In this document: positions 5,980-29,655 of the stretch, one piece after another | Position numbering within the stretch: position 1 is the stretch's first letter | Layout of the letters: the number at the start of each line of letters is the position of its first letter | DNA from: a virus | DNA: 30,678 nucleotides | Direction: 5' to 3' (one strand) | IMG/VR virus record: IMGVR_UViG_3300040801_004430 | Span: 1 to 30,678 of that record | Translations under genes and position numbers: made by a program | Notes under the pieces: generated by a model | The model's database searches: none | The model's input: the letters and a program-made list of their open reading frames with translations, nothing else | Told to the model about the DNA's origin: nothing

Positions 5980-6218
5980 TCGACCCTCATCTTCGGCCCC
6001 TGAAGGGTCGACTCGCCGCGCTCGTAGGCACGGGCCTCCCGCAATCGCTGATGCCAGCGATCACGTTCCGACTGAAGGTCTTTGATCCGGCCCATGAAGT
6101 GAGCCGAAAACCCTTTCACCGACTGCGAAGCCGGAGCGCGGCGAATCTTGCGGATCTCGGCATCGATTTGCCTGATCTCCGCTTCACACTCCGCTTCGGT
6201 GTAGATGGGCTCGTCCAT
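5976..6218 (-). CDS. Small helical protein, possibly a head-tail joining (gpW-like) protein
   Basis: An 80-residue protein with GAGGAAC just before its ATG. It is almost wholly helical, with two charged helices (YTEAECEAEIRQIDAEIRKI and GRIKDLQSERDRWHQRLREA) separated by a short SQSVKG turn. Small two-helix proteins of this kind sit at the head-tail junction in many phages. There are no motifs to prove the role. It is the last protein gene before the tRNA gene in the direction of reading and starts the neck block. Confidence 0.45.
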   Translation of the reverse strand: MDEPIYTEAECEAEIRQIDAEIRKIRRAPASQSVKGFSAHFMGRIKDLQSERDRWHQRLREARAYERGESTLQGPKMRVE

Positions 6219-6235
6219 GAGTTCCTCTAAAAGTA

Positions 6236-6293
6236 GCAGCTCCAGAGTTGGTGAGCTTTGGGTACGTTGGCGCCAAAAGTTCCCCGGAGCTGC
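6236..6293. repeat. Eight-base inverted repeat between the tRNA gene and the neck genes
   Basis: GCAGCTCC (6236-6243) is repeated in inverted form as GGAGCTGC (6286-6293), with 42 bases between. It lies directly after the 3' end of the tRNA in the direction of transcription and ends 18 bases before the next start codon. It could help release the tRNA 3' end or act in mRNA processing; no U-tract follows, so it is not a standard terminator. Confidence 0.4.
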
Positions 6294-6296
6294 AAA

Positions 6297-6370
<74 letters not shown>

Positions 6371-6464
6371 TCTCGTCCCGTTGACCTTTGGGCTCGGCTC
6401 ATCCGTTCACGACGACACGGGACCACATCGCAGCTTCGAGAAGGCTTCACTGCCCTTTTGGTAT

Positions 6465-6959
6465 TCACGGGTGCCTGTTCGGTTTCTCCGAGTAGCGGGG
6501 ATCGGTGTTCCAGCGGTATCCACGAGACACGAGCGAACGAGCCTGCTCGAGCGTGACCGGCGAGTGAATGTAGCGCGCGACGATCTCGGGCTTCGGCGAC
6601 GCGATGACGTCGCCGTTGTAGAGTTCGGGCTCGGTCGGGTGACATCGGATCTGGATGATGTGCTCCTCGTCGATCGGACCTGATGGATTCGCAACTTCCG
6701 GATTCGAGTCTCCGCGTTCGGGCTGCACGGGCGCGTCGGACACATCGCCCGAATCGGTCTCGATCAACGAGACTCCGAGCTTCGATTCGATCCGTGCCGC
6801 GACCTCGTGGAGCTCGTCTTCGCTGAGCTCGAGGAGCGCATTGGATACCGACTCCCGAAGTCCCTCAAGCGAGATGCCTCGCACCTCGTGGTCAACGTAC
6901 TCCTCGAGGAGATAGCCGACCTCACGAAGCTGCTTCATGTCCAGGTCTTCGAATTCCAT
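6465..6959 (-). CDS. Unknown protein downstream of the major capsid gene
   Basis: I choose the ATG at 6959, which overlaps the capsid stop as TGATG; an upstream GTG at 6974 lies inside the capsid gene. The product has 164 residues. The first half is acidic and helical (DLDMKQLREVGYLLEEY, LEGLRESVSNALLEL). The second half has a Pro-rich linker and a segment with EEHIIQIRCHPTEPELYNGDVI. Such a protein right after the capsid gene could be a head accessory or connector protein. I do not recognise a family. Confidence 0.6.
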   Translation of the reverse strand: MEFEDLDMKQLREVGYLLEEYVDHEVRGISLEGLRESVSNALLELSEDELHEVAARIESKLGVSLIETDSGDVSDAPVQPERGDSNPEVANPSGPIDEEHIIQIRCHPTEPELYNGDVIASPKPEIVARYIHSPVTLEQARSLVSRGYRWNTDPRYSEKPNRHP

Positions 6960-7990
6960 CACCACATCTTCCACTTCTGGACGATCCCTTTACGGCTGAC
7001 GCCCGGAATCATGTTGTCGTAGAGGCGAACCGCCATCGTGAACGGGTCCTCACTCGGAATGAATGAGTCGTAGGACGGTCCGGCCGGGTTGTTCCGGTTG
7101 AGGATGTTCGCGGCGCGGTGGATCTTCATCGGCATCCCTCCGCCGCGCTGGTCTTGCAGCACGGTCATGATGGCGTAGCCGTTGTCGACGGCCGCCTTTT
7201 GGCCACCGGTGAGAAGCGGGTAGCGGTCGTGAATGACGACCCAGGTAATACCGTTGAACTCGAACATGCTGAACGAGGGCCCGGACGGGTCGGGGTCGGA
7301 AGGCTGCTGCGGCGTCAGGCCTGCCTGGACCTTGTCATGCGACTTGAACGTTGCCGACGTCGGGCCGTTGATGAACGCGAGTGTCGGCTGCTGACCAGTG
7401 GCCGCGTAGAACTCGTCCTTCATGATGTCGGTTTCGTAGTACGGATCCGCCCCCGCGTCGTTCAGCGCAGTTCCGGGGTTCGTGAGATCGAGGATCTCCT
7501 CGGCGTACGAAATGGAGATCACTTTGTCTCCATCGTCGTAGGTGAACTGCTTGTCGTTCACCATGGCGGCGATGGCCCAGAACTGCAGGTTCTCCCGGCG
7601 TCCCTCGAGGTCGTCGGTTGCTTCGACAAGCCCTTCCTGGCTGACCTCGTAGTCACGGGCGCCGTCGCCGGTGCGACGAAGGTTGTCCTCGTCCTCGGTC
7701 GCCTTGAACTCGTAGGCGTTCTTGACGTGGAACGGAGCGACGAGCTTCTTCTCGGTCTTCATCCCTCGAACGAGCACCGAGGAGTCGGAGAAGCCCGTGA
7801 TGTTCGCGAAGCGCTCGCGCTGCTGGATGAGAATCGGCACCTCGATCAGCTCGCCGTCATGGGCCTGCGCCTCGACGTACTGCATCATCGGCTTTCGCCG
7901 CGGCTCGCGCTCGTCGATGACACCCTGAAGCACATCAGCGGTGACCTCTTCGGGCCGATAGAATTCTTTGAGCTCTTGTTTCTTCGCCAT
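6959..7990 (-). CDS. Major capsid protein (lambda gpE-like family)
   Basis: A 343-residue protein with AGGA and GAGGAA before the ATG. The N-terminal segment has FYRPEEVTADVLQGVIDE, followed by PILIQQRERFANITGF, and then VAPFHVKNAYEFKATED, the order seen in gpE-type coat proteins of the HK97 fold, in which the P-domain strands follow a short N-arm. The C-terminal half has VNDKQFTYDDGDKVISISY, ATGQQPTLAFINGPT and a terminal VRLYDNMIPGVSRKG. Length matches the family's usual 330-350 residues. It sits directly downstream of the decoration gene (8048-8851), as in lambda (D then E). It would form the icosahedral shell. Confidence 0.8.
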   Translation of the reverse strand: MAKKQELKEFYRPEEVTADVLQGVIDEREPRRKPMMQYVEAQAHDGELIEVPILIQQRERFANITGFSDSSVLVRGMKTEKKLVAPFHVKNAYEFKATEDEDNLRRTGDGARDYEVSQEGLVEATDDLEGRRENLQFWAIAAMVNDKQFTYDDGDKVISISYAEEILDLTNPGTALNDAGADPYYETDIMKDEFYAATGQQPTLAFINGPTSATFKSHDKVQAGLTPQQPSDPDPSGPSFSMFEFNGITWVVIHDRYPLLTGGQKAAVDNGYAIMTVLQDQRGGGMPMKIHRAANILNRNNPAGPSYDSFIPSEDPFTMAVRLYDNMIPGVSRKGIVQKWKMW

Positions 7991-15422: not shown

Positions 15423-15474
15423 GTTGGACGTTCCGAGGCTCGCGAAGCTGGCGAAGTGTGACATCAATGCCACA

Positions 15475-15748
15475 CGGATCGGATGGATCGGGTCGCATTT
15501 CCAACCCGATCTGTCGCAAGTCCAGTGTTCATGCGGGTCGGATCGGATGGATCGGATGGATCGGGTATTTGCCTATCTCTCTCGCCACTCACCTACCTAC
15601 CCCTGCGATTTCGCCGTTTTTCGTGGGGTAGGTACCCTTTGCCTCTTTCAATTATAGGGGATAACCCGATCCATCCGATCCGAGGCGCATGAACACTGGG
15701 GATAAAGCGATCCGTGGACCCGATCCGTACCCGATCCATCCGATCCGT
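15475..15748. repeat. Nested, nearly symmetrical inverted-repeat region (origin, packaging or operator candidate)
   Basis: The 463 bases between the small terminase and lipoprotein starts contain no gene. The motif CGGATCGGATGGATCGGGT occurs twice on the plus strand (15475-15493 and, with one extra nine-base unit, 15538-15566) and twice on the minus strand (15664-15683 and 15729-15748). The inner pair is flanked by CCAGTGTTCATGCG (15522-15535) and its perfect complement (15686-15699). At the centre lies ACCTACCCC/GGGGTAGGT (15595-15603 and 15625-15633), a nine-base stem. All the pairs are centred within about 5 bases of 15611. This is a repeat-rich control element, perhaps an iteron origin, a packaging site or a cluster of operators. 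An AT-richer stretch (CAATTATAGGGGATA) lies just right of the central stem. Confidence 0.85.
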
Positions 15749-15774
15749 CCCGCGCCGGTAGAATTCCTGAGCGT

Positions 15775-15818: not shown

Positions 15819-16946
15819 ATGACAAGTAGACTGACGTTTCTGTTCGCATTCCTTTGCTTCGCTGCCTGTTCCAGCGAAGAATCGAAGATCGCAGCTAAGG
15901 CGGAGAAGCTATGCGAAGCCGATCAGCTGGACCGACTCAACCTTGAGATGTTTGAGGATGGTGTCTATCAGGACCTGGTGCGCGCTGAAGACATTGCCTT
16001 CGCAAAGGATGCCGAAAAGGCGCTGGAAGGAAACGCGTTTGCCGAGCTTGCGGCCATCGCCGTCCCATACCAGAAACTAAAGAACGAGCACGCTGAGTGC
16101 GAAGTACAGGTGGCCATTGCAAACGGTGAAGCCACGGCTTCCGTTCGAAGGACGGCGCCGAAACCAGCTCTAAAGGACGAGCTCGAACTCATCGGTTCGC
16201 TCGCGGCTTCGCCGATAGAAGAGGTGCACGCGAAAGCGAAGAGGCTTCTCCAGGATGCGCCCAGGGAAACGGAGAGCTACGAAATTCGCTTTGAGCGCAC
16301 CGAAGGTAAATGGCTCGCAAACCTCGGACTTCCCGAATCCCAAGAGACAAAAGAGCGCTTTACTGAATACATGAAGAAAGTCCGAGATCTCATCCGCGCG
16401 GGCGACTACCGGTCCGCTGACGAAGTGCTGAAGAAGGCGGAGTTGCTGGACACAGACAACGAGAGCGTTCAGTCACTCCGAACCGAGCTCGACAAAGAGC
16501 TTAATCAGTTGGTTGCGGGAAACTGGCGCCTCGACGAGAACAAGGACGAAATGGACGACACACTGCGCACCGTTGTGTCACTTCCCGCGGTCATCGAGGG
16601 CGAGCCGGGAGTGTTCACGCCCAAGCCAATTTTGATCGCTCGATGTGACGACGGCCGCCTCGACCTGTTCCTTGCAATGGACGAATACTTGGGGCTACGT
16701 GGTGTCAAGACCCGAGTTCGTTTCGGCAAAGCGCCAGCTGAATTTGTGGGCGTTGGCCTGTCGGAAAACGGAAAGTCCGTGTTCTTCGACGAACCTTGGG
16801 TGCTCGTAAATCAGATAATCAAGAAGGAAGGCGAGCCACTGCGTTTCGAGGTCCAGAGCCGACTCGGTGACAGGCAATCATCGTTCGATACCGATGGGGC
16901 GAAGCTCGCACTCGCCAAAGTCATCACGCCGTGTACCGACAAGTAG
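15819..16946 (+). CDS. Lipoprotein with a C-terminal VasI/TagO-like domain (moron)
   Basis: A 375-residue protein with GGGGGA just before its ATG. Residues 1-17 form a lipoprotein signal (short charged start, hydrophobic core, lipobox FAAC with Cys17, then SSEE), so the mature protein is predicted to be anchored in a membrane, probably the outer one as Ser follows the Cys. The middle (about residues 25-220) is helical and charged. Residues about 230-372 (NWRLDENKDEMDDTLRTVVSL, later KPILIARCDDGRLDLFLAM and FFDEPWVLVNQII) resemble the VasI/TagO family, small proteins known next to type VI secretion genes. The gene is opposite to both neighbours and appears AT-richer. It is a likely lysogenic-conversion or exclusion gene. 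Confidence 0.75.
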   Translation: MTSRLTFLFAFLCFAACSSEESKIAAKAEKLCEADQLDRLNLEMFEDGVYQDLVRAEDIAFAKDAEKALEGNAFAELAAIAVPYQKLKNEHAECEVQVAIANGEATASVRRTAPKPALKDELELIGSLAASPIEEVHAKAKRLLQDAPRETESYEIRFERTEGKWLANLGLPESQETKERFTEYMKKVRDLIRAGDYRSADEVLKKAELLDTDNESVQSLRTELDKELNQLVAGNWRLDENKDEMDDTLRTVVSLPAVIEGEPGVFTPKPILIARCDDGRLDLFLAMDEYLGLRGVKTRVRFGKAPAEFVGVGLSENGKSVFFDEPWVLVNQIIKKEGEPLRFEVQSRLGDRQSSFDTDGAKLALAKVITPCTDK

Positions 16947-16947
16947 G

Positions 16948-19119
16948 TCAAAACGGATACCGCCCCTGCTCCTCCGGATTCCACGCACAGATCGTAGAGT
17001 CGACGGCGTTTCGCCCCTCCCATCGCAAGCCCCGTCCGTAGTGCCCGCCGTCGTATTTTGAGGCCTGGCCGGCGAATGACGGCTGCACGAGCAGCGGTTT
17101 GAAGCGCGACCAGAACCTCCTCGAGGAAAGTCGCGACTCCATCCAATGGGTGCGGAACGCATCGACCAGGGCACCGGTCGGGATGATGGTGTGCGCATCG
17201 GAAGGTTCGTCGAACCCGCCCTTCTCGAGCAAGTCGTGCACGACGGCAAGCGCGTCGGCTGCTTCGTCGGCTTCGACATCGACACCACCCCGGCGCGACC
17301 GGATGAGCTCGACGAGCTCGTTTCCGTTTTCGAACCGAGCGAGGATGGCGCGCTCCCACGACTGAAAGCGTGTGGTGGACTCGAGATCGACCACAGCCTC
17401 GCCCTGTAGGAAGGCGAGCACATCGCCGACGAGTGCTTCGTGATGCGACTCAAGGAAGTCTTCGACCTCTTCGATAAACGCGACGTCGTGGCGACGCGGC
17501 CCGATCTTGATGGGGACGGCCCGGTCGGCGAGGTCGGTCGAGAGCTCGGGGGTGTTCGCCGAGATACACCAGGTGAACGAGTTCGGGATAGTCGCCTCAC
17601 CGGTGTACATCTGTTTGCCGCTAATGGTCGGGAGCGTGATGGTCGACTCGAGCGCCTGGCTATCCATCCGGCCCTTGAGGTTGTCGATGAAGATGACGCG
17701 CTTGGCCTGACCGGGTGTCAGAAGCCGGGCGACGAACTGCCCCCAGTCCTCGTCCTTTCGCAGGTTGAAAAACCCTCCCCAAACCTTCGCTATCGCTTCG
17801 ACAGTCGACGTCTTTCCGACGCCCCGGCCGTGGTCCGACATGACGATGAACGCTGGCCTGCGACCGAACCCGCCGCCCCAGCCGGGAGTTACGAGCATGG
17901 CTTGGATAAGCTGTCGGTCTGCCGGCGTGTCAGGGTTGAACAGGTCGACGAACGCCTCGAGCGTCGAGCCGTCGCCGGGTGTCACCTCGCAGGTGTAGTG
18001 AATGCGCGCCGACGGCGGGTGATGCGGAAGCGTTTCGATCTGGTCGTAGCGTCCGGTCGACTGCTGCGCGAGAGCTGCGGCGAGCTCGCCGTAGTTCACG
18101 CTCCTGACCTGGTCCCCATCTTTGTAGACCTGCCCGTCGCGCCATGAGACGTCGCAGGTTGTCTGGAGCCAGGCGGACAGGTCTGTGACGGCCGGCAGAT
18201 AGTCGACCGGGGACTCGCCGTTGAACACGCCGTAGTCACGCCCCGGGACGAAGAGTTGCCCGCGAACAAGCCGCGGCCAGAAGCCCGTCGCTTTGTGGAC
18301 CCGATCGACGATCGTCGTGAGTTCGACGTGTCGGTAGACGGTCTTCGAACGGCCGTCGTCGGCGACCTCGTAGGCGACCGAGTAGTTCCGGATCCCGGCG
18401 CGCTGTTTTCGCTCGCGTATCTGCGCAACCCGGAACTTGCGGCGCTCTTTGACGAGTGACTTGAAGTCGTTGAGGTTCGCAGGGCTGTCTTTGATCGCGG
18501 CCTGCAACCGGGCGAACGCGGCCGGGTCGTGCGTCTGGAGCATCGCGGCGGCTTCGAGGGCGTCTTCCTGGAAGGGTCGGCCGACGTCTTCGTGAACGGC
18601 GTCGGCGATGGCGTCGGCGAGCTTTCGGGCAGCGGCTAACTCGCGTTCGCGAGCGATCTCCTTGGTGACCTCTTCGTCCAGTTCGTCGGTTGCGCGAACG
18701 CCGAGATCGAAGATGAGTTCCTTTGTCCGCTCTTCGCCGACGTCGTCGAGAAGACGGACCAGACCGTATCGGCTGCGGCCGGTGACGTCGGCCGCATCGA
18801 GGTACTCCGACCAGTCGCGTACCTGAACGTTGTAGCCTGCAGCTCGCCGGCGGGCGGCGAATGCATCCGCTTCGGAGTACTCGTCGCGATGGTGCGGAAC
18901 GATGACCCAGTAGCGCGAGTCGCGCGGCAACGGCTCATCGGGCCACTCGGTGTCGAGTCCGAACGCGGCGGGGATGCCGAGTTCGTTCAGGACGAACGCG
19001 TCGGTGTAGCTCGAGCAAAGCCAGACGGTGTCGCCGTCGAGGTTTCCACCCCAGCCGGCAAAACCCGACGATGCCGCGGCCTGTCGGACGACGTCGTCGA
19101 TACCTCTCGGTTGACTCAC
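16948..19119 (-). CDS. Primase-helicase with a superfamily 3 (D5-like) ATPase domain
   Basis: A 723-residue protein. The N-terminus (about residues 20-120) has FAGWGGNLDGDTVWLC, FVLNELGIPAAFGLDTEW and RYWVIVPHHRDEYSEADAF, a TOPRIM-like layout. The C-terminal half holds the helicase: Walker A GRGVGKTS near residue 432, Walker B RVIFIDNLK near 470, and a sensor/motif C segment TWCISANTPELSTDLADRAVPI (position about 510-530). Such proteins unwind DNA at the origin and prime it. It ends one base from the lipoprotein gene, which runs toward it. It starts with a four-base overlap with the next gene (ATGA), so the leftward early operon is translationally coupled. The origin itself may be in the inverted-repeat region nearby. 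Confidence 0.82.
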   Translation of the reverse strand: MSQPRGIDDVVRQAAASSGFAGWGGNLDGDTVWLCSSYTDAFVLNELGIPAAFGLDTEWPDEPLPRDSRYWVIVPHHRDEYSEADAFAARRRAAGYNVQVRDWSEYLDAADVTGRSRYGLVRLLDDVGEERTKELIFDLGVRATDELDEEVTKEIARERELAAARKLADAIADAVHEDVGRPFQEDALEAAAMLQTHDPAAFARLQAAIKDSPANLNDFKSLVKERRKFRVAQIRERKQRAGIRNYSVAYEVADDGRSKTVYRHVELTTIVDRVHKATGFWPRLVRGQLFVPGRDYGVFNGESPVDYLPAVTDLSAWLQTTCDVSWRDGQVYKDGDQVRSVNYGELAAALAQQSTGRYDQIETLPHHPPSARIHYTCEVTPGDGSTLEAFVDLFNPDTPADRQLIQAMLVTPGWGGGFGRRPAFIVMSDHGRGVGKTSTVEAIAKVWGGFFNLRKDEDWGQFVARLLTPGQAKRVIFIDNLKGRMDSQALESTITLPTISGKQMYTGEATIPNSFTWCISANTPELSTDLADRAVPIKIGPRRHDVAFIEEVEDFLESHHEALVGDVLAFLQGEAVVDLESTTRFQSWERAILARFENGNELVELIRSRRGGVDVEADEAADALAVVHDLLEKGGFDEPSDAHTIIPTGALVDAFRTHWMESRLSSRRFWSRFKPLLVQPSFAGQASKYDGGHYGRGLRWEGRNAVDSTICAWNPEEQGRYPF

Positions 19120-19337: not shown

Positions 19338-19701
19338 GCCGCCCTCCTTCCATCACAATCGCGATGGGGCCCTCTCGAAGAGGGCATGCCGGGTCGCTCA
19401 TGCCTTCCGTGAGCTGAGTTGGCCGATAGATGCGGGCCGGACCGTTCGGCGCGAGACAATACCGGCGAGTCGGAACGACGCTGGAGTCGTCGAAGAACGG
19501 ACAGTCTAGGCATCCCGTGACCTTCCGCTTGCTGCCCCATTCGGCTTCGGTGCGCTCCTCAGCGATCTGAGCACGCTTTTGGAGACGCGCGTTCTCTTGC
19601 CGAAGGTCGAGCATCTCCTCCACGAGTCGTCGCCACCGCTTCTCCAACGCAACAATTCGGCTGGTTTCCGCGTGACGCTTCTGATCGATATCAGTCTCCA
19701 T
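19330..19701 (-). CDS. Coiled-coil protein with a cysteine cluster
   Basis: A 123-residue protein. Residues 15-60 are a coiled coil (IVALEKRWRRLVEEMLDL and neighbours). The second half has CLDCPFFDDS, then RRYCLAPNG and later DPACPLREGP, four cysteines that could bind one metal ion. The gene overlaps the methyltransferase end by 11 bases and the next gene start by eight. Its function is unknown; it may help the replication or methylation genes beside it. Confidence 0.6.
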   Translation of the reverse strand: METDIDQKRHAETSRIVALEKRWRRLVEEMLDLRQENARLQKRAQIAEERTEAEWGSKRKVTGCLDCPFFDDSSVVPTRRYCLAPNGPARIYRPTQLTEGMSDPACPLREGPIAIVMEGGRHG

Positions 19702-21244
19702 GGTTCACCCCCTGCAGGCGCTGCTCAGCTGCCACGAAAAAGACGTCGTCGACTTCGATCCCGGTGAACTTCCGGTCGAGCTCGATCGCAGCATGTCCGG
19801 TCGAGCCCACGCCCATGAATCCGTCGAAGACGAGGTCACCGGGACGGCTCGAGACTTCGATCAGATGGCGGAGTACTCGAAGCGGCTTCTGGGTCGGATG
19901 AAGCGTGTTGCCCTTGGAGTCGACGAGACGTTCGGCGCCGCCGCAGATGGGCGCTTCGATGTGGTTGTGCATCTCGTTCTCGCCGAGCCAGTTGAAGGTG
20001 TGCCCCTCGCCCTTGGTGAGGAAGAGAATGTACTCGACGCTCGACTTGAAGGTGGTCTTGACGACCTGCGTTCCCGGGTTGGTCTTGTGCCAGGGAATGG
20101 TGATTCGGACGTCGAAGCCGACGACCTCGAGGATGTCGCCAAGGTGCGAGAGGTAGCGGTCGGCGACGAAGACGTACGCGCTGCCGCCCGGGCGGAGGAT
20201 GCGGAAGAGCTCGGCACCGAACGCGGCACAGAACTTGAGGAAGTCGGCGTGCTCGAACTTGTCCCACTCCCCGAAGTCCTGGCTGATGTCGCTTCGACCC
20301 TCGAGTGAGAACACCCGCTCGTTCGCGATGTTGTAAGGGGGGTCCGTTACGATGAGGTCAACGGACTCCGCGCCAACCGAGGGTACCTGGTCGAAGAAGT
20401 CGCCGTGCAGGAGCGTGACCGAATTCTTCTTCGCCCACTTATCGCGCACGTGACCGATGAGCTTTGCGACCGCCTCGGAGTCGGCGTCGTGCTTGTCGTA
20501 GATACCGCGGTCGATCGGGTCGATGGCCTCGCGAACGAGGTCTTCGTGGATGTCTCCGAGTTGCTGGCGGACGTGGTCCTCGAGGGCGTTGCGGTGCGCG
20601 TATGCCTTCGCGCGCGACTTGAACTTGCCCTTCGTGATGACGCCGTCGGCGAGCTCGGTGACGAGCTCAAGTTGTTGCCTGGACGTGAGCGTGACGATGT
20701 CGCGTAAGAGACGTTCGGTGAATGGTACCGCGGTACCATTCGTTGGTACCGAGCAATCAGCCGGTACCAACGCGTTTTCTCGGCACGTGGTACCAATTAC
20801 CTCCCACGCCTCCGAATCGAGCTTCTGAAGCGCCGCGTACTGCTTCACATAGCTCCGACTCCACCCCATCTCATCCGCCACCTCCTGTTGCGTAGCGTCC
20901 TCGAGTTTCCGCCACACGGTCTCTGCGTAGTCGACGAAGGTCTGGGGGAGCGCGTCGCGGTCAGCCTCGTTGGACTCGAAGGCGGCGCGATCGAGCGACT
21001 CCGGCTCGAAAATGTACATCGGCGCGGCTCCGGCGCCCTCGGTCTGCAGCGCCTCGAAACGGTGGTTACCGTCCCAGAGCACGCCGTCGGGCGTGACACA
21101 CAGCGGTCGCTGCGCCTTGTAGCCCTTCTCTCGAATGCTCTCGCGAAGCCGCTCGACAAACGACTCGTTCAGTGGGCGTACGCGGTGAAAGTCCGTGACG
21201 AAGCTCAGCGGCTTCGTCTCGAAGTGTCCGTTGGGTGATGGCAT
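19691..21244 (-). CDS. ParB-like domain fused to a beta-class DNA methyltransferase
   Basis: I choose the ATG at 21244, which has GAGAG six bases upstream, giving 517 residues; a longer frame to 21319 overlaps the next gene. Residues about 8-160 are ParB/Srx-like: FVERLRESIREKGY, PLCVTPDGVLWDGNHRFEAL (GNHR box), then an HTH with QQEVADEMGWSRSYVKQY. Residues about 290-500 are the methyltransferase, with motif IV DPPY at 301-304 before motif I FDGFMGVGSTG at about 470, which sets it in the beta class, plus HPTQKP between. It would methylate adenine N6 or cytosine N4 and could read its own site via the ParB part. The DNA between the two domains holds five GGTACC sites (see separate entry). Confidence 0.85.
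   Translation of the reverse strand: MPSPNGHFETKPLSFVTDFHRVRPLNESFVERLRESIREKGYKAQRPLCVTPDGVLWDGNHRFEALQTEGAGAAPMYIFEPESLDRAAFESNEADRDALPQTFVDYAETVWRKLEDATQQEVADEMGWSRSYVKQYAALQKLDSEAWEVIGTTCRENALVPADCSVPTNGTAVPFTERLLRDIVTLTSRQQLELVTELADGVITKGKFKSRAKAYAHRNALEDHVRQQLGDIHEDLVREAIDPIDRGIYDKHDADSEAVAKLIGHVRDKWAKKNSVTLLHGDFFDQVPSVGAESVDLIVTDPPYNIANERVFSLEGRSDISQDFGEWDKFEHADFLKFCAAFGAELFRILRPGGSAYVFVADRYLSHLGDILEVVGFDVRITIPWHKTNPGTQVVKTTFKSSVEYILFLTKGEGHTFNWLGENEMHNHIEAPICGGAERLVDSKGNTLHPTQKPLRVLRHLIEVSSRPGDLVFDGFMGVGSTGHAAIELDRKFTGIEVDDVFFVAAEQRLQGVNHGD
20721..20796. repeat. Cluster of five GGTACC sites in palindromic pairs inside the methyltransferase gene
   Basis: GGTACC lies at 20724, 20732, 20745, 20763 and 20789, five times in 71 bases. 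The first two make a perfect 20-base palindrome AATGGTACCGCGGTACCATT (20721-20740). The next two are inverted copies CGTTGGTACC (20741-20750) and GGTACCAACG (20763-20772) with 12 bases between. The fifth is GTGGTACCAATT. This falls in the linker between ParB-like and methyltransferase domains. It may be a binding site for the protein itself, a parS-like site or a methylation target. Confidence 0.8.
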
Positions 21245-21263: not shown

Positions 21264-21515
21264 TCATTTCCGACCACCGAAACGAACGACCTTAGTGATT
21301 CGCGAGGGCAGGATCGCAACCAACTCCTCGCTCTTCGCGAGTCGTACAGTCCAAAGCCCTGCAGCGAACCGGATCAGTTCCCCTTCGTGTCGCCTTCTGC
21401 CGAACATGAAGAGCACACGATCGCCGACCTCGAAGGGGCGCCCGTGAACTTTTCGATGAAACCGCTCGGCCTCATGGCCGGCGAACGTCAGCAGTCTGGC
21501 GATGGGGGAACGCAT
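21264..21515 (-). CDS. Small basic protein, first gene of the leftward early operon
   Basis: The ATG at 21515 has GGAGA about six bases upstream and gives 83 residues. The protein is basic, with a helix (ARLLTFAGHEAERFHRKV) and a beta-rich rest: FEVGDRVLFMFGRRRHEGEL, LWTVRLAKSEELVAILPSRI. The VGDRVL..... stretch and size suggest an SH3-like fold, as in some small nucleic-acid-binding proteins, but no family is recognised. The promoter region shared with the XRE1 gene lies just upstream. Confidence 0.6.
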   Translation of the reverse strand: MRSPIARLLTFAGHEAERFHRKVHGRPFEVGDRVLFMFGRRRHEGELIRFAAGLWTVRLAKSEELVAILPSRITKVVRFGGRK

Positions 21516-27390: not shown

Positions 27391-29655
27391 GTGGTCGATG
27401 TGCCATGGACAACGATGGAAGAGCTCCGAGAGAGCGAGGGACTTGCCGCGGCCAGGTTCGTGAAGGCCTGGCGGTCCGGCGAGTTGCTTCGCGGTAAGCG
27501 CGTCGAGATGCAGCAAGTCGACGGGCAGCGCTACTGGAGGATGGTCAACCCCAACGCCGATGCTGAGCCCGCTGAGGAAGTCAGTAGCCAGGAACGCGGG
27601 ATCGTCATTACCGAAGAGACCGACGTCGTCGAAGAGGAGTTGGATTTGGTTCCGACCGCTCAGCCCGAAGAGACCGACGTCGTCGAAGAAGTTTCGGAGC
27701 TTGCACCCGCCGAACCTGATGAACCCGAAGAAACCGAAGCCGCCGAGGGGGAGCCGGAACTTGAGCCCGGAGCCCCGCGCCTCGAGGACTCGAAGATACA
27801 CGGGCGAACTGTAAACGGACTGGTTGCGGCCGGGCTCGAGACATCCGCTGACGTCGTCGCGTTTATCGACGACGCGGCCGACGCGGATGCTGCAGTCGAA
27901 AGGCTGACGGAGATCGACGGCGTTGGCCAGAAAGGAGCAGCCGACGTCATTGCCTGGGTCCAGTTTGTTGAGGACTGGACAGGTGCAGGAGCCGATCCCG
28001 AGACCTTCGGCGCATTGGAAGTGGGCGACGAGTTTCTCGCCACGTCCTCTGGTAAACGCTTCCTGAAGGTCGAGCCGTCGCGTCGCGAGAATGGCACCCC
28101 GTACAACGCGCTTCGTTGCTTCGAATTCGACGGCGACGAGCGGACGTTCTTCGCTGCCGACAGCCAGATCGACGCCATCCCCGGCGGCGACATCCACTGC
28201 CCCGAATGTGGCGGTTGGTTCGACCGCGCTCCATTTGACGCCTACGAGGCCGGATCAGTCGCGGTCTGCGAGGCCGATGGAGATCCGGATCGCGGCGACT
28301 GTGGCGTCAGGTTCTGTATTAGCGGTTTCTTGGACGGCGAGTGGGTCGTCGTCGGCATGGTCGAGACCGAGATTGTCGAAGAGGCAGTTAAACACGCGAT
28401 CGATGCGAACGAAGTGGAGTCGCTCGAAGAGGAGTCGCTCGAAGAGGAGTCGCTCGAAGTGGAGTCGCTCGAAGAGGAGCCGCTCGAAGTGGAGTCGCTC
28501 GAAGAGGAGGAAGACAGCGCCGACGACCTGTCAGACATCGACTTCACTTTCGCCGACGTCGGCAATGAGGATGAGCCCGACACCGAAAGTAGCCAGGTCG
28601 AGCCGCTCGAAGAACCCACGGCCGAGCCGTTCAGCCTCGATGCATTCTGGGGCGAGCCGGACGCGGAGCTCGTCCCGGAACACGAACGCCTTCACCCTGC
28701 CCTTTCGGCTTGTAGGCCCGCGTCCATCATTCCGGAAGCACCAGACTCCGACGAGTGGTTGCGTCTTCGTGCCCACGGCGTCGGCTCATCAGACGCTGGC
28801 GCCATACTCGGTGTTTCGCCGCACGCGAGCGCACTCGACATCTGGAAGACGAAGGTCGGCGAAGACGCTGACTCCAAACCATGGCTCGAGCCGTACTCAG
28901 ACTTCGGAACGTGGTTCGAACCCTTCCTGCTCGACTACTGCGAGCTTACGTCCGGCCGCGCGATTACCGCCGGCGACGACCTCGGAACGCTGCGCTCGGT
29001 CATCTGGCCGAGGGCTCAGGCAAACCTCGACGGGCTCGACGACTTGGGAGTCATCGAGGAACTGAAGACATCGAGCGAAATATGGGACGAAGTGCCGCCG
29101 GCATACGTCGCCCAGGCGCAACACCAGATGTACGTCACGGGCTGCGATGAGGCTCGAGTACGACAGTTCATCTGCCCGGTCGACCGGCCGGCGGTAATGA
29201 AGCTGCTCGAGCGCGGCGTATCCGAGCAGCTCGTCGCCGAATGGCTCTTCGATGTCGGCGAGGTCGTAACCTGGGTCGTCGAACGTGACGACGACTACAT
29301 CGCGCGCCTGGTCGAGCTCGAGCAACAGTTTTGGGCATGCGTCGAGGCGGGCGTCGAGCCGATCGAGAACGACCCTGACGGCGAGATCGACCTTACCGAC
29401 GATCCGAAGGTGTTCGCGGCGATGAAGGAGTTCGCCGCCCTGAAGACCTCGGTCGCTGTCTACAAACCGGAAATGAAAGCGGTCGAGCGCGCAAAGAAGA
29501 AGGCGCGCAAGGAGATCGAGCGCGCCGTCTCACTCCTGAAAGAAAAGCCCAAGCGGGTCGTCGTCGGCGACCACAAAGCAACGCTCGTCGAGCGCTACGA
29601 CAACCAGTACTGGAACCTGTACCCGGGGGAGGAACATGACCGCATCATCTTCTGA
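27391..29655 (+). CDS. YqaJ-type viral recombinase/exonuclease with extra N-terminal domains
   Basis: I choose the GTG at 27391 because GGAGG lies five bases upstream; the frame extends back through the tRNA-like elements. The product has 754 residues. Order: an N-terminal 50-residue unit (WTTMEELRESEGLAAARFV), an acidic linker, a helix-hairpin-helix-like part (about 135-190, with LTEIDGVGQKGAADVIAWV), a zinc-ribbon-like part (HCPECGG at about 269, later CGVRFC), six copies of a five-residue repeat (341-370), and the YqaJ nuclease at about 450-700. The catalytic residues are visible: GVGSSDAGAILG, the Asp in ANLDGL (Asp547) and EELK (Glu557, Lys559). It resects DNA ends so that ERF can anneal strands. 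Confidence 0.85.
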   Translation: MVDVPWTTMEELRESEGLAAARFVKAWRSGELLRGKRVEMQQVDGQRYWRMVNPNADAEPAEEVSSQERGIVITEETDVVEEELDLVPTAQPEETDVVEEVSELAPAEPDEPEETEAAEGEPELEPGAPRLEDSKIHGRTVNGLVAAGLETSADVVAFIDDAADADAAVERLTEIDGVGQKGAADVIAWVQFVEDWTGAGADPETFGALEVGDEFLATSSGKRFLKVEPSRRENGTPYNALRCFEFDGDERTFFAADSQIDAIPGGDIHCPECGGWFDRAPFDAYEAGSVAVCEADGDPDRGDCGVRFCISGFLDGEWVVVGMVETEIVEEAVKHAIDANEVESLEEESLEEESLEVESLEEEPLEVESLEEEEDSADDLSDIDFTFADVGNEDEPDTESSQVEPLEEPTAEPFSLDAFWGEPDAELVPEHERLHPALSACRPASIIPEAPDSDEWLRLRAHGVGSSDAGAILGVSPHASALDIWKTKVGEDADSKPWLEPYSDFGTWFEPFLLDYCELTSGRAITAGDDLGTLRSVIWPRAQANLDGLDDLGVIEELKTSSEIWDEVPPAYVAQAQHQMYVTGCDEARVRQFICPVDRPAVMKLLERGVSEQLVAEWLFDVGEVVTWVVERDDDYIARLVELEQQFWACVEAGVEPIENDPDGEIDLTDDPKVFAAMKEFAALKTSVAVYKPEMKAVERAKKKARKEIERAVSLLKEKPKRVVVGDHKATLVERYDNQYWNLYPGEEHDRIIF
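28411..28515 (+). repeat. Fifteen-base tandem repeat inside the exonuclease gene
   Basis: Six full copies of GAAGWGGAGYCGCTC (28411-28500) and a seventh, diverged one. They code for EVESL or EEESL units in an acidic linker. Copies differ at few positions (GTG or GAG, TCG or CCG), so they are recent and likely vary in number between relatives. Confidence 0.9.

Follow-up and report, generated by a model that had tools for sequence, protein, structure and literature searches.

The window analysed here, a virus record of 30,678 bases taken as a whole, carries on its minus strand a gene with a predicted ParB fold, a ParB-type HTH and an N6/N4 DNA methyltransferase domain (Table 1). To its left and on the same strand lie the terminase small and large subunit, portal and tail-sheath genes, and to its right, running rightward, lie a repressor-like gene and genes for an Erf-type annealing protein, a single-strand binding protein and a YqaJ-type exonuclease. 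Two ORFs with no clear family were found between the methyltransferase and terminase genes, at 15819–16946 (375 aa, with a sub-threshold PRTRC_E match) and at 16948–19119 (723 aa). Elsewhere in the window, we found a minus-strand tRNA-Met (CAT) gene located among late genes (6297–6370), a 15-bp coding tandem repeat of 6.7 copies in an 804-aa exonuclease-like ORF (28410–28509) and, in a non-coding gap beside the terminase small-subunit gene (15474–15750), five units of ∼20 bp (ACGGATCGGATGGATCGGGT), three facing one way and two the other, which form a candidate packaging, cos or origin site.

The catalytic domain is predicted to be of the N6/N4 DNA methyltransferase type from its PF01555 match, a family found in 7/7 relatives scanned, and from the DPPY motif (TDPPYNIA) in the translation of the window methyltransferase. 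An hmmsearch with a 16-row profile matched Spo0J (1vz0, E 9.4e-11), Noc (7nfu, 5.4e-7) and KorB (8qa8, 0.0021). The AlphaFold2 model built on the 16-row alignment (mean pLDDT 87.7) matched the structures of KorB (8qa9, Z 12.8, rmsd 4.4, 192 residues) and Noc (7nfu, Z 11.5, rmsd 6.2, 189 residues) and the DNA-bound structures of Spo0J-parS (4umk, Z 10.5, rmsd 3.3, 99 residues) and Noc-NBS (Z 9.9, rmsd 3.1, 102 residues), and the modelled ParB fold is confident. The pLDDT fell below 50 for three or more consecutive residues only at 163–171, the heart of the site-bearing loop, which is predicted to be disordered. The first-pass annotation had placed the repeats in a linker between the ParB-like and methyltransferase domains; the loop is in fact part of the ParB DNA-binding domain, where it separates the HTH from the FTE.LLR helix. 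The protein showed no C-terminal ParB dimer domain. The usual form of ParB box II is GERR, and because it reads GxHR here, CTP use and clamp sliding are uncertain. According to one study of such folds, sequence is not a reliable guide to their nucleotide specificity (PMC12704722).

Table 1. Predicted features of the ParB-methyltransferase gene and its half-sites, in window positions
Feature	Position	Strand	Remarks
Gene with ParB fold, ParB-type HTH and N6/N4 DNA methyltransferase	19691..21244	-	ATG at 21244; TTG at 21319 as alternative start, giving 542 aa
N-terminal ParB/sulfiredoxin-like NTP-binding fold	20957..21229	-	model residues 6-96; box II G[NR]HR
Recognition helix SRSYVKQYA	20834..20860	-	Arg173-, Lys177- and Gln178-equivalents
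Site-bearing loop AWEVIGTTCRENALVPADCSVPTNGTAVP	20723..20809	-	includes model residues 163-171
Putative half-site 1, TGGTACC	20789..20795	-	gene strand
Putative half-site 2, TGGTACC	20763..20769	-	gene strand; type B position
Putative half-site 3, TGGTACC	20744..20750	+	plus strand
Putative half-site 4, TGGTACC	20732..20738	-	gene strand; half of 16-bp parS-like palindrome
Putative half-site 5, TGGTACC	20723..20729	+	with half-site 4 forms TGGTACCGCGGTACCA (20723-20738)
Arg201-equivalent codon in FTE[R]LLR	20711..20713	-	residue paired with base 7 = C
N6_N4 methyltransferase domain	19733..20362	-	PF01555, E 2.3e-40

GGTACC occurs at 20724, 20732, 20745, 20763 and 20789, and our recount bore out the five copies within 71 bp (20724–20794) of the minus-strand gene from which the first-pass annotation had started. 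The five comprise two inverted pairs and one single copy. The inverted repeats proved slightly better than the 20-base palindrome and spaced repeat originally claimed, the 20724/20732 pair forming a perfect 22-bp palindrome (20720–20741) and the 20745/20763 pair having perfect 11-bp arms with a 10 nt spacer. The window contains 10 GGTACC in total, those outside the cluster being at 2038, 13469, 15631, 20382 and 27214, while dinucleotide-preserving shuffles averaged 2.50 and 0/100 attained 10. The 7-mer TGGTACC was a better unit, with 5 copies in the loop and 0 elsewhere in the window (0.9 expected from a Markov model).

We then asked what relatives carry at this place. The counts refer to 20 distinct relatives with an intact loop, including the window, of which 16 formed the training set and 4 the test set; L029 is a Hoeflea MAG, L030 is Thiocystis violacea, L082–L088 derive from genomes and the remainder are IMG/VR contigs. 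The first full-length relatives (L002, L003 and L004, 38–49% identity) had the same loop length and no five GGTACC, each carrying a repeated motif of its own; L016 gave the fifth motif, and by then the repeated-motif idea had been formed. Such a motif was subsequently found in all further distinct intact loops (L025, L029, L030, L038, L066, L067, L069, L070, L072, L073 and L078) and likewise in L082, L084, L085 and L088, making 20/20 with the window. We excluded duplicates (L068, equal to L067, and L079, equal to L078), repeat fetches (L017–L019, L021–L024, L033–L037, L039, L040, L055–L058, L063–L065, L071, L074–L077, L081 and L083), truncated entries without the loop (L026 and L080), ParB-like proteins outside the family (L027, L028, L031 and L032) and chromosomal ParB-like proteins (L041–L052). 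Methyltransferase-only matches (L005–L015 and L059–L061) had an unmatched N-terminal part and their loops are outside the count, and the remnants L086 and L087 were kept apart from the counts.

An archaeal plasmid methyltransferase was among the search matches. With parts of the window, L016, L018, L025, L066 and L078 as queries, tblastn against phages and plasmids returned no family member, and loosely related ParB-like proteins of Leptospira phages had no such loop by eye. Profiles A3/A7 gave 1/210 in the order of G002 (plus nine weak ParB matches), 1/397 in the order of G001, 1/369 in the class of G002, 1/385 in the class of G001 and 0/394 in the family of G1353, all positives being genomes already known, and profile A8 gave 6/239 positives across the phylum of G001, five of them new; the profiles and samples behind these tallies differ, and hence they are not frequencies.

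Each loop was scored by setting its best 7-mer at five non-overlapping positions, on whichever strand, and summing the matches (maximum 35). All 20 loops scored 32–35. Synonymous-codon shuffles that kept the codon use of the gene attained the observed score in 0/150 cases for 19/20 loops and in 1/150 for L016, and no other window of the same gene attained it among the 33–179 tested per gene. The window loop itself reached 35/35, where shuffles averaged 29.7 with 0/150 reaching 35 and 0/118 other stretches of the gene did so; a score of 35 was also seen at window positions 15661 and 28405–28432, both unrelated repeats.

The places of the half-sites were as regular as their score. Counted from where the Ala codon of an Ala-Trp pair begins (Cys-Trp in L038), the half-sites start at offsets 14 (+), 35 (-), 59 (-), 71 (+) and 80 (-). 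In six relatives (the window, L029, L066, L067, L069 and L073), the second lies at 40 (+) rather than 35 (-); copy 2 is thus found in two orientations (types A and B), a point against the explanation that we prefer below. In loops of other length, the offsets move by whole codons, except that the fourth site of L004 is off by one base. Copies 4 and 5 point towards each other, separated by two bases in 15/16 training relatives and by three in L004, making 16 bp (17 bp in L004), and the halves of this palindrome are imperfect in some relatives, e.g. L003 and L078.

The half-site sequence varies by relative (TGGTACC, TGTCGGG, TGTCGCA, TGGCACA, ATCCGCA and others), with a consensus over the first 16 relatives of T (13/16), G (14/16), three variable bases, C (15/16) and a variable base, i.e. 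mostly T-G-N-N-N-C-N. Within one relative, the copies agree at 96–100% for bases 2–7 and at 89% for base 1, and the flanking bases vary. The parS half-site is TGTTTCAC, and the half-site found here has the same frame. Judged by these comparisons, GGTACC as such is not the key; the point is a relative-specific half-site at fixed places. The first-pass annotation would have given up its reading if relatives had the linker but lacked the GGTACC pairs, and taken to the letter this is what we saw, since in no other relative is GGTACC the five-copy motif. In every one of them, however, a different motif occupies these positions and fits the HTH of that relative, and the result therefore favours the idea of a binding site. 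Its suggestion of a DNA site under selection in a protein stretch free to vary is likewise supported.

Outside the loop, motif copies were at chance in the available DNA of the 16 relatives (14 versus 17.0 expected; none in the window), most loci covering 4.5–8.7 kb, which leaves room for distant copies in the relatives. No extra motif copies were found at the promoter in the available DNA of the relatives and the window, and no further palindromes or promoter operators elsewhere were above chance in the available DNA. Because outside copies were at chance, the gene is predicted to be the sole docking place in the DNA examined.

We next compared the half-sites with the residues expected to read them, numbered as Caulobacter ParB 173, 177, 178 and 201 by the G-x-S-R helix spacing and the x-L-L-R after the loop (PMC7383237). 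In that study of ParB and Noc, guanine at position 1 goes with R173 and adenine there with Q173, cytosine at position 6 goes with R201, and the residue is G201 where position 6 is adenine; S172, N178 and R204 likewise contact DNA (PMC7383237). Published positions 1 and 6 correspond to bases 2 and 7 of the half-site here. In the training relatives, R/K173 went with G at base 2 (14/14) and S173 with T; K/R177 with G at base 3, A/G/Q177 with T and S/N177 with C; D178 with G at base 5 and N/Q178 with A, together with single cases of K178 with A, R178 with C and G178 with G; and R201 with C at base 7 (4/4), G201 with A (6/6) and N/T/F201 with G. The four residues each predict their base in 16/16 training relatives, where residues with a single example fit trivially, by construction. 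Permutation gave p-values of 0.00005 for 177, 0.00015 for 178, 0.00005 for 201 and 0.009 for 173.

A scan of 1057 residue-base pairs in 14 non-redundant relatives ranked 178 with base 5 second, 177 with base 3 third and 201 with base 7 fifth; the top pair joined base 5 to a column of the N-terminal part, so relatedness is not fully controlled, and the fourth involved base 6, which varies in a single relative. Motif distance was correlated with distance in the recognition helix (Mantel r 0.47, p 0.0004; r 0.50 once N-terminal distance was removed) but with neither the N-terminal domain (r -0.02) nor the 60 residues past the loop (r 0.02). Three pairs of relatives with similar helices that differ in residue 201, L066/L069 (G/F), L070/L072 (G/R) and L029/L067 (G/N), differ in their half-sites only at base 7, as the rules would have it, and do so in all five copies.

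The rules were fixed in writing before the six new profile A8 matches were read, of which the four with an intact loop were used. In this test set (L082, L084, L085 and L088), the sites were at the same offsets and 12/13 predicted bases were correct, three residues being without a rule, whereas random draws of training bases averaged 5.3/13 and reached at least 12 with P 1.5e-5. Residue 201 was correct in 4/4 test relatives. The single miss was L088, where Lys177 predicted G and T was seen, and the remnant L086, read by eye, likewise had Lys177 with T at base 3, a second miss of the same kind. Both are without Arg173, so our guess is that Lys177 may contact base 2 instead. The predicted code thus contains the pairings Arg201-C, Gly201-A and Arg173-G, as published, and Asp178-G, Asn/Gln178-A and Lys/Arg177-G, seen here.

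Reader and site also appear to move together. Among L066, L067, L069, L070 and L072, nucleotide identity was mostly 72–98% per 60 bases and less at the far 5' end, and pairs with different motifs dropped to ∼42–65% in the second half of the HTH and the loop; the pairs L066/L069 and L070/L072 each have a common helix. The best reading of these alignments is that the HTH and its sites would behave as a swappable specificity cassette. The methyltransferase regions of L066 and L070/L072 are 92% identical and go with the motifs TGGCACA and ATCCGC[AC], respectively. Conversely, L029 and L073 (gene ends 5407 and 5431) have the ParB-HTH-loop module on a different methyltransferase, 65% identical to each other and 24–27% to the others (L066 and the window), i.e. 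a domain swap with the same site layout. As far as sequence comparison tells, it is not the methyltransferase domain that sets the motif.

Some neighbouring observations concern incomplete or additional genes. At ∼1400–1590 of the remnant L087, two loops lie in tandem with the motifs TGGCGCA and TGTGACG (scores 35 and 31) and the HTH is missing, which looks like a recombination product of two cassettes, a swap caught half done. The remnant L086 has four degenerate sites (24/28). In L078, a second, different methyltransferase gene with a ParB N-terminal part lies directly downstream (5999–7591) and has no site cluster.

We consider it highly probable that each of the five GGTACC copies is a half-site in a parS-like site for the ParB-type domain of the protein that the same gene encodes, and the parS-like site that the first-pass annotation had offered for the ParB part agrees with the evidence. 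The protein would very likely bind its own gene, taking the half-sites as ParB takes parS, with copies 4 and 5 as the full palindrome and the other three strengthening or shaping the complex. The published ParB uses a 16-bp palindrome, and the three extra half-sites need explaining, which is a point against this explanation. For the step after binding, we favour loading in cis and rank autoregulation second. Tentatively, the protein, with its N-terminal nucleotide-binding clamp fold, would load at its own gene and spread along the DNA, so that the fused methyltransferase would accumulate in cis on the phage genome and mark self rather than host DNA. Held with more reserve is the complete proposal of a self-marking device, in which a clamp would load solely at a centromere-like site in its own coding sequence, slide outward and methylate in cis, the HTH and sites being exchanged as a portable cassette against cross-talk. 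A site inside the gene would keep reader and site inseparable in recombination, as with phage lambda O. Phage ParB-methyltransferases have been proposed to direct modification to particular sites in the virus genome (PMC6536676), and the fusions have been described as common in phages with a role only guessed at, an anti-defence role also being suggested (PMC12704722).

Autoregulation would have the protein block transcription from its intragenic sites and keep the methyltransferase low, with no role of the sites in targeting methylation. The position of the sites ∼450–520 bp inside the gene would suit such a block, KorB, the best structural match, is a repressor and, with outside copies at chance (14 versus 17.0 expected), the gene is the only enriched target seen. 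We nonetheless judge autoregulation unlikely, as the usual place would be promoter operators, none of which were found in the available DNA, and the nucleotide-binding clamp fold would be left unexplained.

Two further functions appear improbable to a similar degree. The cluster, once bound, might start replication or mark the start of packaging as a lambda O-like module: the O gene of lambda contains ori, to which the O protein binds through its N-terminal half (PMC4488673), L066, L069, L072 and L029 have a helicase gene immediately downstream, an O/DnaD-like protein was found in L017, and terminase genes are downstream in the window and L019. However, this context is inconstant, with replication genes in some relatives and terminase in others, and a fused methyltransferase would be unexpected in an initiator. 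Alternatively, an orphan ParB-parS pair might serve prophage maintenance or exclude relatives of the same specificity, and the diversification would then reflect incompatibility groups. This reading accords with a true ParB fold with parS-like sites and with near-identical genes whose specificity cassettes are swapped, but no ParA was found among the proteins scanned (part of the ORFs, on partial contigs) and, in the accessible part of PMC12704722, only the DUF3850 fusion among all fusions detected was consistently beside parA.

A conserved mRNA hairpin or attenuator is very improbable: the inverted repeats fold strongly as modelled RNA, but the pairing copies vary by relative (1:2+3:4, 1:2+4:5, 1:5+3:4, 1:3+4:5 or 2:3+4:5, with 16/16 training loops folded), which disfavours such a hairpin, and base identity tracks protein residues, which pairing alone does not require. 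Hardly any credence is left for GGTACC, the KpnI site and a palindrome of restriction-site type, as the target of the methyltransferase itself, an option that the first-pass annotation had also entertained and in which the clustering would serve self-control, because the 92%-identical methyltransferase domains carry different motifs, different methyltransferases share one layout and the motifs of the other relatives are mostly non-palindromic.

The protein of the window can be compared with several known systems. KorB is the best structural match of the window model (8qa9, Z 12.8 over 192 residues); it is a plasmid repressor and partition protein with another operator and no methyltransferase. 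Lambda O binds direct 19-bp iterons in replication initiation, has no methyltransferase and is unrelated to the protein of the window. Bacillus subtilis spo0J contains a parS site, and our literature search for parS inside parB found no supporting passage. A search that left most subscription papers outside its reach likewise gave no account of ParB-methyltransferase sites within their own gene. Like the present protein, lambda O is a DNA-binding protein with sites inside its own gene, according to the accessible part of PMC4488673, and because of this precedent a site within its own gene is not wholly unprecedented.

Phage ParB-methyltransferase fusions (the ParB-TLS locus; ParB-CTPase fold and N6_N4 MTase) have the same domain order and phage home, and the accessible parts of the papers on them describe no binding site, specificity code or embedded site (PMC6536676, PMC12704722). 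The ParB-TLS locus has the ParB-methyltransferase gene next to the terminase genes; here, terminase genes lie downstream of the gene in the window and L019, and its neighbours in L029, L066, L069 and L072 are replication genes. Each fusion would gain a predicted cognate DNA site and a readable code, with more than a dozen specificities, and its function becomes directly testable.

With chromosomal ParB-parS and Noc-NBS, the present system has in common the fold, the HTH, the 16-bp palindrome layout and the residue-base pairs at 173 and 201. It differs from them in that the half-site changes in nearly every relative, that five half-sites are clustered, that an inserted loop in the gene of the reader itself contains the sites, and that a methyltransferase follows at the C-terminus. 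One coding stretch would do two jobs, a disordered loop housing the sites of its own domain such that reader and site travel and evolve together, and these natural matched reader-site pairs would widen the ParB specificity code, so far covering two bases, to four or more.
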